64,000 bases of DNA from Branchiibius hedensis (GTDB taxonomy: Bacteria; Actinomycetota; Actinomycetes; Actinomycetales; Dermatophilaceae). The stretch is taken from assembly GCF_900108585.1 (NCBI RefSeq), contig NZ_UESZ01000001.1, forward strand, positions 124,001-188,000. Direction: 5' to 3'. The first letter of the stretch is position 1. Each line of letters opens with the position of its first letter. Positions 14,068 through 20,044 of the stretch are shown one piece after another. Made by a program: the position numbers and the translations under genes. The notes beneath the pieces were generated by a model. That model was not told the DNA's origin. It did not search any database and saw only the letters and a program-made list of their open reading frames with translations.

Positions 14068-15806
14068 ACCCCTCGACTGCTCTGGCGACCGTGCTCGTGG
14101 ACGAGTTGATCCGGCAGGGGGTGCGTGACTTCGTCGTCTGTCCTGGATCGCGGTCGGCTCCCTTGGCGTACGCCGTGCTGGCCGCTGAGCGGGCCGGGCG
14201 CGCCCGGTTGCATGTCCGGGTCGACGAACGATCCGGTGCGTTCCTTGCGCTGGGTCTAGCCAAGGTCAGTCGGCAACCGGCCGCGGTCATCACGACCAGC
14301 GGGACGGCGGTCGCGAACCTGCACCCCGCGGTCCTCGAGGCATCCCACGGCAACGTGCCGCTGCTGCTGCTCACCGCGGACCGCCCGGCCGAGCAGCGCG
14401 GTAGCGGCGCCAACCAGACCACCGACCAGGTGAAGATCTTTGGCGGGATGACCCGGTGGTTCCACGAGTTCTCCGCTGCTGGTCGTCGCCCCGGCCAGCA
14501 GGGTCAGTGGCGCTCGGTGGTCGGCCGGGCGGTCGCGGAGTCGTGCGGTCACCCCTCCGGCGACCCGGGGCCGGTGCACCTCAACGTCAGCTTCCGCGAG
14601 CCGCTGACCCCGGACACCGACCCGACGGGGTGGTCCGAACCGCTCGACGGTCGCCCGCACGGTGAGGCGTGGCTGAGTCTGCGGTCGCCGGTGCGCCACG
14701 AAGCGGCGGGCGCCGGGCCGGGCATCGCCCCGGTCCCGCGCACACTGTTGGTGCTCGGCAGCCTTGCCGACCCCGCTCGCGCCGCCGACATCACCGAGCT
14801 GGCAGATGTCGCTGGCTGGCCGATCATCGCCGAACCGGCCGGCCTCTTCCGGCGTGCCCGGGTCACCCCGCACGGACCACTGTTGTTGTCGGCGACCGGT
14901 TGGCTGGAGGAGAACCTGCCCGAGCGGGTCCTGGTCGCCGGTGCCGTCACATTGGACCGCCGGGTGCTGGCCCTGTTACGCCGTCCTGAGGTGACCGTCG
15001 AGGTGGTCACGGCGCTGACGTCCTGGTCCGACCCGGTGCATGCGGTCCACCGGGTCCACGACTGGGCTGACATCGAGCGCAGTCACCGGGTGGTGGCCGG
15101 GTGTGTCGATCGGACCTGGGCCGCCCGCTGGCGAGCCGCGGGAGCAGTGGTCGCCGCCACCGCCGGCCCGATCGTCGAAGCGTCGTGGCCCAGTGGGCCG
15201 GCGGTCGCCCGGACGGTCGCGAACAACCTGCCGGAGCGGGCGCTGCTGTTTGTGGGTGCATCCAGTGCCGTGCGGGATCTGGATATCGCCCGTGAGCCGG
15301 CGCGGATCGCCAAAGGCGTTGTGACCGTGGGGAATCGGGGTCTGGCTGGAATCGACGGGTCGGTATCCAGCGCGATCGGTGCGGCCCTCTCGCAACCGGA
15401 CCGGCCGGCGTACGCGCTGATGGGTGACCTCACCTTCCTGCACGACACCAACGGCCTGCTGATCGGTCCGGACGAACCTCGCCCGGATCTGACCATGGTG
15501 GTCGTCAACGACGACGGTGGCGCGATCTTCAGCACGCTGGAGGTGGGGGCGCCCGAGTACGCCGGGGCGTTCGAACGGATCTTCGGCACAGCGACGGGCG
15601 CCGACATCGCCGGTGTGTGCGCAGCGCACGACGTGGCCCATCGCAGCGTCGACACCGCAGCCGAACTGGCCGAGGCGATCAGTGCCACCCCGCAGGGTCT
15701 GACGGTGCTCGAGGTGCGGGTGCCGCGCACGGACGCCCGACGGTTGCGTCAGGACCTCGCGGCGGCCGTCGACGCGGCGTTATCGCCTGGCTCAGTCGGC
15801 CAGTAG
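14064..15806 (+). CDS. menD: 2-succinyl-5-enolpyruvyl-6-hydroxy-3-cyclohexene-1-carboxylate synthase
   Basis: A 580-residue thiamine-diphosphate enzyme of menaquinone synthesis that joins isochorismate and 2-oxoglutarate. N-terminal FVVCPGSRSAPLAYA and the VDERSGAFLALGLAK block hold the conserved Glu that activates the cofactor. ADRPAEQRGSGANQTTDQ is a MenD hallmark. The C-terminal part holds GDLTFLHDTNGL and VVVNDDGGAIF, which form the ThDP/Mg site. GTG at 14064 has GGAGG upstream and overlaps the previous stop. The C-terminus overlaps the flavodoxin-like gene on the other strand by about 15 nt. menF and menG lie 4-6 kb downstream. Confidence 0.95.
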   Translation: MNPSTALATVLVDELIRQGVRDFVVCPGSRSAPLAYAVLAAERAGRARLHVRVDERSGAFLALGLAKVSRQPAAVITTSGTAVANLHPAVLEASHGNVPLLLLTADRPAEQRGSGANQTTDQVKIFGGMTRWFHEFSAAGRRPGQQGQWRSVVGRAVAESCGHPSGDPGPVHLNVSFREPLTPDTDPTGWSEPLDGRPHGEAWLSLRSPVRHEAAGAGPGIAPVPRTLLVLGSLADPARAADITELADVAGWPIIAEPAGLFRRARVTPHGPLLLSATGWLEENLPERVLVAGAVTLDRRVLALLRRPEVTVEVVTALTSWSDPVHAVHRVHDWADIERSHRVVAGCVDRTWAARWRAAGAVVAATAGPIVEASWPSGPAVARTVANNLPERALLFVGASSAVRDLDIAREPARIAKGVVTVGNRGLAGIDGSVSSAIGAALSQPDRPAYALMGDLTFLHDTNGLLIGPDEPRPDLTMVVVNDDGGAIFSTLEVGAPEYAGAFERIFGTATGADIAGVCAAHDVAHRSVDTAAELAEAISATPQGLTVLEVRVPRTDARRLRQDLAAAVDAALSPGSVGQ

Positions 15807-16232
15807 TGCGGCGAGGGTCCCGCCCAACTCGGTGCATCGGGCGAGGTCGGATTCGTCGACGGGTCCGATGAGTTCAACTGGTTCCGCCGCCAGCCGCCAG
15901 GTCAGGCCGGTCGCCACGGACAACAGCGATCGGCGGGCGCCGGTGGTGTCCGATCGCCCGTGGATCCACACCGAGAACGGGCGTTTGTCGACCCGTCCCC
16001 GGATGTCGTCGTACGTCGAGTCGAAGGCATGCTTCATCGCGCCCGACATGTAACCGAAATTGGCTGGTGTCCCGAGCAGATAACCATCCGCCGATAGGAA
16101 GTCATCGATCGAAACGTCAAGCGCGGCAACGACGTTGACGTCGACCGCGTCGATCGCGTCGTCGGTGGCTCCCGCGACGACGGCTTCGGTCAGGGACCGC
16201 AGCAGCGGGGTCGGACTGTGATGGACGATCAA
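15792..16232 (-). CDS. Flavodoxin-family protein
   Basis: About 146 residues. LLIVHHSPTPLLRSL at the start fits the phosphate-binding loop of a flavodoxin fold, and GTPANFGYMSGAMKHAFDSTYD fits the FMN-ring loop of the flavodoxin/NAD(P)H-oxidoreductase family. It probably binds FMN and carries electrons or reduces a small substrate. No ATG or GTG lies in frame at a sensible place; TTG at 16232 is a guess, and the frame runs further into the upstream gene. It follows the cysteine desulfurase by 13 nt on the same strand, so it may belong to the encapsulin operon. Confidence 0.7.
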   Translation of the reverse strand: MIVHHSPTPLLRSLTEAVVAGATDDAIDAVDVNVVAALDVSIDDFLSADGYLLGTPANFGYMSGAMKHAFDSTYDDIRGRVDKRPFSVWIHGRSDTTGARRSLLSVATGLTWRLAAEPVELIGPVDESDLARCTELGGTLAALLAD

Positions 16233-16245
16233 CAGTTGTCGCAGG

Positions 16246-17937
16246 TCATGCCCCCGCGATCTGGCGGACGGTCTCGATGAAGAAGTCGATCTCGTCGTAG
16301 GTGTTGTAGAACGCGAACGACGGACGGACCGTTGCTTCATAGCCCAGCCGGCGCAGGATTGGCTGCGCGCAGTGGTGACCGGCGCGCACCGCAATTCCCT
16401 TCTCGTTCAAAGCTGTTCCGACCTCGTGGGGCTCGTGACCGGCGAGCACGAACGACAGCACGCTGGCTTTGTGCTCAGCCGTGCCCACCAACGTGACACC
16501 AGGGATGGCGGCCAGCCGGGGCGTGGCGTACTCCAGCAGGTCGTGCTCGTAGGCGGCGATGCGATGCAGGCCGATGCGCTCGACGTACCGCAACGCTTCG
16601 GCCAGCCCCACGGCGTCGGCGATGTTGCCGGTCCCGGCCTCGTACTTGTTCGGTGGCGGCTGGTAGATGCTGCGCTCGAAGGTGACGTCGGCGATCATGT
16701 TGCCGCCGCCCTGCCAGGCCGGCGTCTCGTCCCAGACGCGCTCCCGGATGAAGACCGCGCCGATGCCGGTGGGGCCGAAGATCTTGTGACCGGAGAAGAC
16801 GAAGAAGTCCGCGTCCAACTCGCTCAGGTCGACGGCCAGGTGTGGCACCGACTGCGCCCCGTCGACCAACACCCGGGCGCCGGCCCGACGAGCCATCTGG
16901 GCCATCGAGACGACCGGGTTGACGGTGCCGGTGGCGTTGGCGACCTGGGTGAAGGCGGCGATCTTGGTGCGGGAGTTGAGCAACTCCCCGAACCGTTGCT
17001 CGTCCAGCTGGCCGCGGTTGTCGACCGGTGCCACGACGATGCGAGCGCCGGTGCGGTCGGCCACCATCTGCCACGGAACGATGTTGGCGTGGTGTTCGAG
17101 GTTGGTCAGCAGGATCTCGTCGCCCGGGCCTAGGTTCGCCCGGCCCCAGGACTGGGCGACCAGGTTGATCGCCTCGGTGGTGCCGCGGGTGAAGGTGATC
17201 TCCTCCGAGCGCGCCGCGCCCAGGAACCGCTGGACCGTCGAGCGGGCGTCCTCGTAGGCGTCGGTGGCCCGCGCCGCCAACTCGTGGGCCGCGCGGTGGA
17301 TGTTGGAGTTCTCGTGCTCGTAGAACGCCGAGATCCGCTCGATCACCGGCCGTGGCTTCTGGGTGGTGGCAGCGTTGTCGAACCATATCAGCGGGTGACC
17401 GTTGACCTGCTCGGACAGGATCGGGAAGTCGCCGCGCACTGAGCCGACGTCGAAGGTGTCCCGGGTGCTGACGTCGCTGACCGGCGCCGGCCCGAACGTG
17501 CCGGTGGGCACCTGGGGTGGCCGGGTCGCCGTACGCGCATAGGGACCCTCGACCGGGACGGCGTACGGCGCTCCGTGCGGTGCGTGGGACCCCGCCGACG
17601 GTGACGGCTGGGGCAGCGAACCGCCCAGATAACGGTTGGGCGGTGCCAGCCCCGTCAAGGGTGCATCCAGCCCCGGGATGCCGGTCGGGGCGCTCACTCC
17701 GCCGCCGCGGGGAGCCACTGGCACGACGCCGGGGGGAGCACCAGCGCCCACGGCGGGCGCGGATCCCACGCTCGCGCCGCCGCCGCGGGGAGCTACTGGT
17801 ACGACGCCGGGCGGTGAGTCGGGGCCGGGCAGCGGCAGCGAACCGGCGAACAACTCGTTCGCGATCTGGGCGACCTGCTCAGCACTGACGATGTAATCCC
17901 CGCTGGCGGGGTTGATGGGTGGCTCGTGATGGGACAC
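16246..17937 (-). CDS. Family 2A encapsulin cargo: cysteine desulfurase
   Basis: A 563-residue SufS-like class II PLP enzyme that takes sulfur from L-cysteine and leaves alanine. The PLP lysine is K385 in FSGHKIFGPT and the catalytic cysteine is C523 in RAGHHCAQP. The first 165 residues are not part of the usual SufS fold (about 405 residues). They form a Pro/Gly/Ala-rich, probably unstructured region with the conserved-looking start INPASGDYIVSAEQVAQIA and two copies of PPGVVPVAPRGGG (residues 42-54 and 68-80). Such N-terminal extensions load the enzyme into family 2A encapsulin shells. The shell gene lies 14 nt upstream on the same strand, which supports this strongly. Confidence 0.93.
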   Translation of the reverse strand: MSHHEPPINPASGDYIVSAEQVAQIANELFAGSLPLPGPDSPPGVVPVAPRGGGASVGSAPAVGAGAPPGVVPVAPRGGGVSAPTGIPGLDAPLTGLAPPNRYLGGSLPQPSPSAGSHAPHGAPYAVPVEGPYARTATRPPQVPTGTFGPAPVSDVSTRDTFDVGSVRGDFPILSEQVNGHPLIWFDNAATTQKPRPVIERISAFYEHENSNIHRAAHELAARATDAYEDARSTVQRFLGAARSEEITFTRGTTEAINLVAQSWGRANLGPGDEILLTNLEHHANIVPWQMVADRTGARIVVAPVDNRGQLDEQRFGELLNSRTKIAAFTQVANATGTVNPVVSMAQMARRAGARVLVDGAQSVPHLAVDLSELDADFFVFSGHKIFGPTGIGAVFIRERVWDETPAWQGGGNMIADVTFERSIYQPPPNKYEAGTGNIADAVGLAEALRYVERIGLHRIAAYEHDLLEYATPRLAAIPGVTLVGTAEHKASVLSFVLAGHEPHEVGTALNEKGIAVRAGHHCAQPILRRLGYEATVRPSFAFYNTYDEIDFFIETVRQIAGA

Positions 17938-17951
17938 GGCGGTGACCCCGA

Positions 17952-18869
17952 TCAGGCGTAGTCGTGGAAGGTGCCGACGTCGACGCCGTCCAACACACCC
18001 AGCGCGTCATCGGTGAGGACGGCCAGCGCGGAGTAGAGCGAGACCAGGTAGGACGCGATCGCCGACCGGTTGATCCCGGCGAAGCGCACGGACAGGCCAG
18101 GGGACTGCTCACCGGTCAGCCCCGGCTGGAACAGGCCGACCACACCTTGGCGCTCTTCCCCGGTGCGGACCAGCAGGAATTTGGTCTTGCCCTTCTCGAC
18201 CGGCACCTTGTCGGAGGGCACGATCGGGATGCCGCGCCAGGTGATGAACGGCGACCCGAACAGGTCGACGGTGGGCGGCGGGGTGCCGCGGCGAGTGGCT
18301 TCGCGACCGAACGCGGCGACACCCAGCGGGTGGGTCAGGAAGAAGCTGGGGGTCTTCCAGACCTTGGCGATCAGGCTGTCCAGGTCGTCGGGGGTGGGCG
18401 GACCGGACAGGGTCGAGATCGTCTGGTCCTGGGTGACCTGGGACAGCAGGCCGTGCTCGGCGTTGTTGATCAGTTCGAACTCCTGGCGCTCCTTGATCGT
18501 CTCGATCGTGAGGCGCAACTGCTCGCTGACCTGGTCGTGCGGGCTGGAGTAGAGGTCGGAGACCCGGGTGTGGATGTCGACGATCGTGGAGATCGAGCGC
18601 AGCGTGATCTCACGCGGGTTGGTCTGATAGTCCACGAAGGTCTGCGGCAACGGCTCTTCGCCGGCCTCGCCGACCTGGACCAGGACGTTCTCCGGGTTGG
18701 ACACCCGGTTGACCCGGTAGATACCGGCTTCGACGGGCACCCAGGACAGCAGATGCAGCAACCAGCGCGGGGTGATTGTCTCCAGTTGCGAAACCGTCTT
18801 GGTGGCATTCGCAAGTTGTCGTGCCGCGAGATCGCCCAGTGCCTGCGATTCGTTTTGTTCGGTGGCCAT
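17952..18869 (-). CDS. Family 2A encapsulin shell protein
   Basis: A 305-residue HK97-fold shell protein of the SrpI/family 2A type, which self-assembles into a cytosolic compartment around a cysteine desulfurase. Characteristic parts are ITPRWLLHLLSWVPVEAGIYRVN, quoted as ITPRWLLHLLSW then PVEAGIYRVNRV at about 37-59, IHTRVSDLYSSPHDQ at about 103-117, the EFELINN segment and a conserved C-terminus with GLSVRFAGINRSAIASYLV. ATG at 18869 is preceded by AGAGGA at ideal spacing; an in-frame GTG five codons upstream is less likely. In other actinobacteria and cyanobacteria this pair is tied to sulfur storage. Confidence 0.93.
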   Translation of the reverse strand: MATEQNESQALGDLAARQLANATKTVSQLETITPRWLLHLLSWVPVEAGIYRVNRVSNPENVLVQVGEAGEEPLPQTFVDYQTNPREITLRSISTIVDIHTRVSDLYSSPHDQVSEQLRLTIETIKERQEFELINNAEHGLLSQVTQDQTISTLSGPPTPDDLDSLIAKVWKTPSFFLTHPLGVAAFGREATRRGTPPPTVDLFGSPFITWRGIPIVPSDKVPVEKGKTKFLLVRTGEERQGVVGLFQPGLTGEQSPGLSVRFAGINRSAIASYLVSLYSALAVLTDDALGVLDGVDVGTFHDYA

Positions 18870-18878
18870 AACGTCCTC

Positions 18879-18893
18879 TTTCACAATGTGAAA
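18879..18893. promoter_or_regulatory. Palindrome upstream of the encapsulin gene
   Basis: TTTCAC-AAT-GTGAAA is a perfect 6-bp inverted repeat directly upstream of the encapsulin Shine-Dalgarno sequence. It could be an operator for a sulfur- or redox-responsive regulator; that is inferred. It overlaps the place where a transcript leader would begin. Confidence 0.4.
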
Positions 18894-18950: not shown

Positions 18951-20009
18951 CTACGTGTTTGCTGCGAATGTCCTTGAATACGAACGGTACTCGCCATCGG
19001 TGTTTGTCGCGACGATTCGTGAGCTTCGTCGCACTGCGGTCACCAAGGGAGTGAATTCTTCGTGGCTGTCCCGTCGGCTAGAACCCGCTAGCCGACGCGC
19101 ATGAATAGCGGAAACATCCAAATCGACCACGACGGAAGTGGCCAGGTGCACCAGGTGCTCATAGAGGGCGACGATGCGTGCGGGATTGCGGTAGGGGGAG
19201 GCGGCGACCGGCCGCAAAGACACGTCCGCCAGGCGCACGCGGTGATCCCCGTCGGCCCGCGCGACGCAGCGGTAGTGCAGGAAGCCGATGGTCCGGGCGT
19301 TCGTCGTGTGCGAGACGGTGACGCCGACGCCGAGCGCTTTGGACACCATCCCGCCGTCAGGTGCACGCACCGAGGACGTCGCCACCCGCTGCCAGGTCCG
19401 GCCGTCGAGGGAACGCTCCAGGTGCACCGTGACCGGACCGTCGCTGCTGACGGTGACGTCGTAGCTGCGCAGTTCCAAAGGTTGGCCCAAGGTGAGGGTC
19501 AGCGTCGACCGGCCGCCGCGGTGCCGAGCCGACTGCTGCACGGGTGCGGCGATCTCGCGCGTGTCCAGGTGCAGGTCGTTGGTGAGGTGCCAGATCGCCG
19601 CCTGGGTTGCCGCGATGGCTTCGTGCGGGCGCAATTCGGCGGCTCCGGCGACCCCTTCTGCTGCGAGGCGGGCGCGGACCTTGGCCAGTGAGACGAACGG
19701 GTAGCTGACCGACAGGATGCGGGCGATGGTGCGCTCGTGGGTGCGATGGGTCGACGGGTGCGCTGCGGGCCACGCACTGCCCTGGTAGTGGGCGATCTGT
19801 CGGGGGCTGCGGCCGAAGAAGTCCAACGAGTAGCTGTCGACCCCGGGATTGAGCCGGATCAGGTCCGTCAGGGCGCTCTGGCCGTTGGTGAAGTGGATCT
19901 GGGCGACGGTCGGTGAGTAGGTCCCGCCCCGCACCCGGGACAGCCGGGGTTCGCTGCGAATCTCCAGGGGTGCGACAACGGGCACGGGAGCGCTGGCTGC
20001 GGATGACAT
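18951..20009 (-). CDS. Thioester-domain (TQXA)-like protein lacking the Cys
   Basis: A 352-residue protein. Residues 28-145 follow the layout of the thioester (TQXA) domain of Gram-positive surface adhesins: an RGGTYSPTVAQIHF beta start, a YxxDF block at 60-64, tryptophan and SYP segments, and ATQAAIWHLTN at 134-144. In true members the block reads YCID and its Cys bonds to the Gln of TQ. Here the Cys position is Ser61 while Gln136 is kept, so no thioester can form. There is no signal peptide or sorting signal, so it appears cytosolic. Residues 150-265 are beta-rich (ELRSYDVTVSSDG, RTIGFLHYRCVARADGDHRVRLAD). It lies 81 nt upstream of the encapsulin gene on the same strand. Function unknown. 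Confidence 0.7.
   Translation of the reverse strand: MSSAASAPVPVVAPLEIRSEPRLSRVRGGTYSPTVAQIHFTNGQSALTDLIRLNPGVDSYSLDFFGRSPRQIAHYQGSAWPAAHPSTHRTHERTIARILSVSYPFVSLAKVRARLAAEGVAGAAELRPHEAIAATQAAIWHLTNDLHLDTREIAAPVQQSARHRGGRSTLTLTLGQPLELRSYDVTVSSDGPVTVHLERSLDGRTWQRVATSSVRAPDGGMVSKALGVGVTVSHTTNARTIGFLHYRCVARADGDHRVRLADVSLRPVAASPYRNPARIVALYEHLVHLATSVVVDLDVSAIHARRLAGSSRRDSHEEFTPLVTAVRRSSRIVATNTDGEYRSYSRTFAANT
19073..19096. other. Perfect 9-bp stem-loop inside a coding region
   Basis: GTCGGCTAG and CTAGCCGAC flank a 6-nt loop, inside the 3' third of the thioester-like gene. CTAG is rare in high-GC genomes, and two copies in one stem are striking. No U-tract follows on either strand, so it is not a standard terminator. 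Confidence 0.5.
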
Positions 20010-20044
20010 GCGACGCCTTTGTCTGACGGGTGATGGCCAGGCAA

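Follow-up and report, generated by a model that had tools for sequence, protein, structure and literature searches.

Surface adhesins of the thioester domain (TED) fold need a Cys and export, and a protein of this layout that carries Ser at the Cys position and shows no signal peptide raises the question of what use the domain could have inside the cell. Such a protein is encoded in Branchiibius hedensis, within the stretch of 64,000 nucleotides analysed here (contig NZ_UESZ01000001.1, positions 124,001 to 188,000; the window in what follows). A first-pass annotation, made from the letters alone, had taken it for a cytosolic, chemically dead form put to another use, perhaps binding. To assess this proposal, the domain content of the protein, its relatives, their predicted fold and their gene neighbourhoods were analysed.

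The gene and its domain content

The gene for the encapsulin-associated pseudo-thioester-domain protein P0001 (352 amino acids) occupies positions 18951..20009 on the minus strand, with a Shine-Dalgarno-like AAAGG (20016..20020, minus strand) six bases 5' of the ATG at 20009. The TQXA thioester-domain layout attributed to it, consisting of a YxxD block, an SYP segment and TQxAIW, was confirmed. Its motifs read Y60-S61-L62-D63, S102-Y103-P104 and T135-Q-A-A-I-W140, the last of them being a helix motif conserved in the family (TQAAIW, residues 135-140; 19590..19607, minus strand), and the ORF is matched by the profiles TIGR03934 (TQXA; 44.2 bits, cut-off 30.4) and PF08341 (TED; 33.1 bits, cut-off 22). 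Since both scores exceed the curated cut-offs, the TED assignment is not a matter of chance. P0001 is the sole TED gene found in this genome. Zero matches were obtained with it among phages and plasmids, a search of PDB sequences returned nothing useful, and a single-sequence scan of the genome contigs gave zero matches; only an alignment query retrieved the family, listing 110 relatives, and 80 of these were fetched for analysis.

Loss of both thioester residues

The residue singled out in the first-pass annotation, Ser61 in YSLD (codon at 19827..19829, minus strand), indeed stands at the thioester Cys position. Alignment of the homologues indicates that Cys has been lost throughout the encapsulin clade, in which Ser61, Tyr60 and Gln136 are invariant (75 of 75 members). 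Ordinary surface TQXA proteins of the class carry Cys there, apart from two with Gly, so that most surface relatives are of the Cys type. In an hhalign comparison of the mycobacterial homologues with 25 surface TEDs (99.75%, E 3.2e-27), homology extends across the whole TED, and the surface-TED Cys aligns to the invariant Ser of the encapsulin clade.

The retention of Gln136 was also correctly noted, but a role as the thioester partner of residue 61 does not stand, the residue being the Gln of the TQXA helix. In TEDs this Gln is not the bond-forming one, which lies in a later strand within a weak 'Phi-Q' motif (PMC4450167, PMC6194298), and the retention of Gln136 is therefore uninformative on thioester chemistry. 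The surface TQTLI region aligns to R-[FL]-T-P-V-A-L in the clade, with a register of +/- 1-2 residues, and within that register neither a conserved Gln nor any candidate Gln is present in the TPVAL region. In P0001 the segment corresponding to the bond-Gln strand is EFTPLVT (residues 318-324; 19038..19058, minus strand), which contains no Gln. With the Cys changed to Ser and the true bond-forming Gln gone, no thioester is expected to form in the domain, and the description of the encapsulin pseudo-TED as a chemically dead form is supported, as far as its sequences allow it to be judged.

The same conservation could be read as that of an enzyme, in which Ser61 and His129 would act as a hydrolase or as a persulfide handler. 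Besides the invariant Ser61, His129 (motif HEAIAATQAAIW) is kept in 73 of the 75 clade members and is unconserved in the surface TEDs inspected; it is placed two helix turns from Gln136, so that both residues probably occupy one face. However, no TED is known to have such an activity, nor is a substrate pocket known, and we regard catalysis as quite unlikely. The preferred reading is that the pseudo-TED acts by binding, because it is non-exported and, as judged above, would be unable to form a thioester.

Fold and inserted domain

The structure model of P0001 has a pLDDT of 75.5, with residues 52-77 below 50, and is too poor around Ser61 for a TED fold to be visible in it. Its middle domain (about residues 157-270; 19200..19541, minus strand; model m51beb6bbc275) matches jelly rolls of the CBM32, APC10 and factor VIII C2-like type in Foldseek. 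The thioester fold was recovered in the model of the full-length mycobacterial homologue L121 (pLDDT 90.7, pTM 0.87). Compared with the PDB, this model matches two crystal structures of Class II TEDs best, 6fwy (E 3e-8) and 6fwv (E 2e-6), and its insert leads to CBM32. Thus, the mycobacterial pseudo-TED, as modelled, matches a Class II TED fold with an inserted CBM32/discoidin-like domain, which follows the TQXA helix and precedes the helix after it. The hhalign comparison of the mycobacterial homologues likewise shows this jelly-roll insertion, which is missing from the Cys-type surface TEDs, and a profile search of PDB sequences gave weak matches to streptococcal pilus ancillary protein 1 and to a CBM32. 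The best-conserved part of the protein is the N-terminal lobe of the TED (residues 24-156; 19542..19940, minus strand), with 54 of 133 positions conserved to at least 95%, a level that the jelly roll reaches at 13 of its 114 positions.

The Class II TEDs of the TIE adhesins (EfmTIE86-TED, 6FWY; BaTIE, 6FWV) share with the mycobacterial homologue the fold, the YxxD strand and the TQxxxW helix, and their beta-sandwich insert is present in the mycobacterial form but lost from the window copy. In contrast to them, the pseudo-TED has Ser for Cys and lacks the bond-forming Gln, a signal peptide and an anchor, while it carries the extra CBM32/discoidin insert and is linked to an encapsulin.

Absence of export and origin of the serine

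No signal peptide was detected in about 80 copies of the family, and P0001 has no cell-wall anchor. The lack of an export signal pointed out in the first-pass annotation was corroborated by the N-terminus of P0001, which is devoid of the hydrophobic stretch typical of the surface relatives: its best 12-residue Kyte-Doolittle mean is 1.5, with a family median of 0.93 and values of about 2.2 in surface TQXA proteins. The family N-terminus, ahead of the domain, is short, basic, rich in Arg and Pro, and conserved across genera. A wrong start or a hidden signal peptide was rejected, since the in-frame sequence 5' of the ATG gives merely 13 codons and the short N-terminus is conserved. The suggestion that P0001 is a normal TED adhesin, its signal peptide concealed by a wrong start or a frameshift, in favour of which the fold alone can be cited, thus meets both of these facts as well as the encapsulin linkage, and deserves hardly any credence.

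It might also be thought that the protein reaches the surface by non-classical export together with the encapsulin. The fold is that of an adhesin, the mycobacterial encapsulin was earlier characterised as an antigen and a major protein of the membrane, and PMC8049743 gives its shell homologue in M. leprae and M. avium as a known antigen. The missing signal peptides and anchor and the loss of the thioester speak against such a location, as do the cytosolic products of its gene neighbours cysK and cysE, and it appears very improbable.

The actinobacterial surface proteins of TIGR03934 are exported, have an LPXTG-like anchor and mostly carry Cys, features that are lacking in the pseudo-TED. Among them, only a protein of genome G382 combines Ser with the inserted domain. 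It is an LPXTG wall-anchored protein with two TEDs, in which the motif reads YSLD and YSVD, and with the inserted domain of the encapsulin clade; no Family 2A shell was found in its genome. A phylogeny of the N-terminal lobe places it with the encapsulin clade (96/95), amid surface TEDs of the Cys type; this tree was midpoint-rooted, the direction of change being inferred. The Cys-to-Ser change probably predates the loss of export, because the anchored G382 protein has Ser and joins the encapsulin clade; an origin of Ser together with export loss was ruled out on the same ground. Thus, of the earlier argument that the fold needs both Cys and export, the non-exported state holds for P0001, but the coupling of Ser to export loss does not.

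Linkage to the Family 2A encapsulin

Family 2A compartments are regarded as stores of elemental sulfur. Their shell is virus-derived and is thought to handle sulfur. In the window, the pseudo-TED gene is followed on the same strand by a Family 2A shell gene (17952..18869, minus strand; NF041162, 499.6 bits, cut-off 380), with about 80 bases separating the shell ATG from the TED stop, and then by the gene for an encapsulated SufS-like cysteine desulfurase (16246..17937, minus strand; TIGR01979, 523.9 bits), whose long N-terminal cargo domain is probably disordered. The shell ATG at 18869 was chosen by N-terminal similarity to other shells, the ORF being open from a GTG at 18884. The locus is of Family 2A type by its NF041162 shell and its SufS-like desulfurase cargo, although the latter scores 783.5 bits with NF041166, slightly below the exception cut-off of 800. 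Directly behind the desulfurase, and possibly in the same operon, lies a gene with weak likeness to FMN reductases/quinone oxidoreductases (15792-16394, minus strand).

Known Family 2A systems comprise an SrpI shell and a cysteine desulfurase, with serine O-acetyltransferase and rhodanese. The pseudo-TED loci likewise have a bona fide 2A shell and desulfurase, with cysE and cysK nearby as in known sulfur-type operons. A shell gene adjoins the pseudo-TED gene in 78 of the 80 fetched relatives, the two exceptions (L074 and L143) lying at contig ends. Among 98 genomes of the genus Mycobacterium, 32 have the shell together with a full-length pseudo-TED, and none of the 66 others has a full-length copy; this co-occurrence of 32/32 against 0/66 gives a Fisher p of about 1.5e-26, relatedness being ignored. 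Remnants occur in three of the 66 genomes devoid of the full pair. In one of these decayed loci, that of G1340, both genes have decayed together: a frameshift interrupts the TED, and 41 residues are left of the shell. The pseudo-TED is intact in G1328 (Mycobacterium genus; 3,271,694 bp, 58.5% GC locally), a genome that would be M. leprae-like.

At the level of the class, a true 2A shell was found in 16 genomes, and the homologue adjoins it in the window and in all seven genomes of genus g149, that is, Mycobacterium in the broad sense. No pseudo-TED was found beside the shell in 8 of the 16, with contigs L046 and L048 ending close by. G100, from the same family as the window genome, has the shell and the desulfurase with no pseudo-TED found beside them, and G1348 has a second 2A shell and desulfurase locus without a pseudo-TED (L181), its first locus having one. 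The compartment as such does not, then, require the pseudo-TED.

Two gene arrangements are found. The pseudo-TED gene is codirectional with the shell gene in the window, in G542 (another family of the same order, with the gene order of the window), in Propionicimonas, where both ORFs overlap by a few bases, and in Leucobacter, and divergent from it in mycobacteria. In the G542 locus (L014:11149-12320) the TED is split by a frameshift and an in-frame stop interrupts the shell match, reflecting either decay or sequencing error. The linkage to the shell has been kept through both arrangements, which we regard as strong evidence, drawn from gene content and order, that pseudo-TED and Family 2A encapsulin are functional partners. 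The other use suspected in the first-pass annotation would thus be a specific one, as constant partner of this encapsulin.

A partner of this kind could be a second cargo, packed in the encapsulin alongside the cysteine desulfurase. The constant shell linkage is compatible with packaging, as are the transcription with shell and cargo in the window, Propionicimonas and G542 and the conserved basic, Pro-containing N-terminus ahead of the domain. The N-terminal cargo motif of the desulfurase is of the LARLANEFF type, according to Nichols 2021 (PMC8049743). A canonical cargo signal on the pseudo-TED was discarded, a LARLANEFF-type motif being missing from all 74 copies; moreover, in mycobacteria it is transcribed divergently from the shell gene and has a regulation of its own. 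Packaging is thus an unlikely explanation, and an accessory that binds to the compartment is preferred to it.

A poly-Cys leader in mycobacterial loci

In mycobacterial-type loci, L121 included, the pseudo-TED gene is preceded, 80-200 bases upstream, by a leader with a short ORF ending in a run of Cys codons, present in 84 of 84 such loci (a few near-identical records included) and illustrated by that of L088, MQQAVQLRFVPTRCIAVGCCCCCC. The short ORF is accompanied by a -10 box in 72 of the 74 copies outside the window, and this TANNNT box is positioned for a transcript start at the ATG of the short ORF, i.e., a leaderless one. The Shine-Dalgarno of the TED gene, TCAGGAAG or TCAGAAAG, base-pairs with the segment that follows the stop of the short ORF, TGATTTCCTGA or TGATTTTCTGA. 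The mean energy of this duplex is -10.3 kcal/mol for cognate pairs, against -8.8 for swapped pairs (0 of 2000 as good) and -6.4 for shuffled ones, relatedness being ignored, and the variants CCTG/CAGG and TCTG/CAGA are matched to each other in a 28/1/2/36 table, with the same disregard of relatedness, as in segments that coevolve. No such ORF was found 5' of 67 shell genes, nor at the window, G542 and Leucobacter loci; Propionicimonas has a Cys-run ORF shorter than the mycobacterial one.

This leader has the layout expected of a cysteine-responsive attenuator, a mechanism reportedly demonstrated by Canestrari 2020. The known mycobacterial poly-Cys attenuators (of nirA, cysA2 and others) share with it the leaderless Cys-run ORF and the anti-SD/SD pairing; they precede sulfur-related genes, whereas the pseudo-TED leader precedes an encapsulin accessory gene. 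Cysteine-responsive poly-Cys attenuators had been proposed by Shell 2015 (PMC4633059). Because the window locus has no poly-Cys uORF, cysteine regulation is not extended to the window copy.

Genes of cysteine synthesis accompany many of these loci. Directly 3' of the TED gene lies cysK in 36 loci, usually with cysE and often with a thioredoxin-like gene behind, and in twelve other loci cysK is found beyond the desulfurase. In L051 (7099-10960), the poly-Cys leader is followed one after another by TED, cysK, cysE, a thioredoxin-like gene and a gene for a small membrane protein, likely a cysteine-shortage operon. A MAG of Propionicimonas encodes a cysteine synthase-rhodanese fusion 3' of the gene for the encapsulated desulfurase (L067:9498-10838).

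Proposed function

Taking the above together, we consider it probable that the pseudo-TED serves the Family 2A sulfur encapsulin as a dedicated accessory, one that is not exported and acts by binding alone, and that in mycobacteria it would be made under cysteine shortage and may aid sulfur recovery. It is proposed that in mycobacteria, when cysteine is scarce, ribosomes would stall at the Cys codons of the leader, freeing the Shine-Dalgarno of the TED gene, and that the pseudo-TED would then be synthesised. The conserved surface at the former thioester site, together with the jelly roll, could contact shell or cargo. As a result, and as neighbours and attenuator architecture suggest, the sulfur of the compartment might be recovered for CysK, or else further use of cysteine by the desulfurase might be stopped. 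A more specific form of the proposal, in which the dead adhesin fold is a regulator induced by cysteine shortage that docks on the shell, CysK and CysE then recovering the stored sulfur, is put forward only tentatively. Sulfur storage by the Family 2A shell is presented as a model in Nichols 2021 (PMC8049743), and no pseudo-TED accessory is named in the passages of that paper covered here.

Neither thioester proteins nor TQXA proteins occur in the main text of the large encapsulin survey PMC8346489, and a search of openly available main texts found no report combining encapsulin, cysteine desulfurase and thioester domain. The pseudo-TED thus shows a known fold in an unaccustomed place, as an encapsulin partner, with its chemistry lost. 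If encapsulins store sulfur, the pseudo-TED with its cysteine-sensing leader is a concrete candidate for sulfur recovery, and this candidate partner is present in many mycobacteria, including the genome that fits M. leprae. If the proposal is true, a covalent adhesin fold would have been recruited for a non-covalent task inside the cell, and encapsulins would be tied to a control by cysteine as sensed by the ribosome.

As a last observation, the pseudo-TEDs of L046-L146 are themselves poor in cysteine, with a median of 1 residue and none in 33 of the 74 copies, which fits a protein produced under cysteine shortage.
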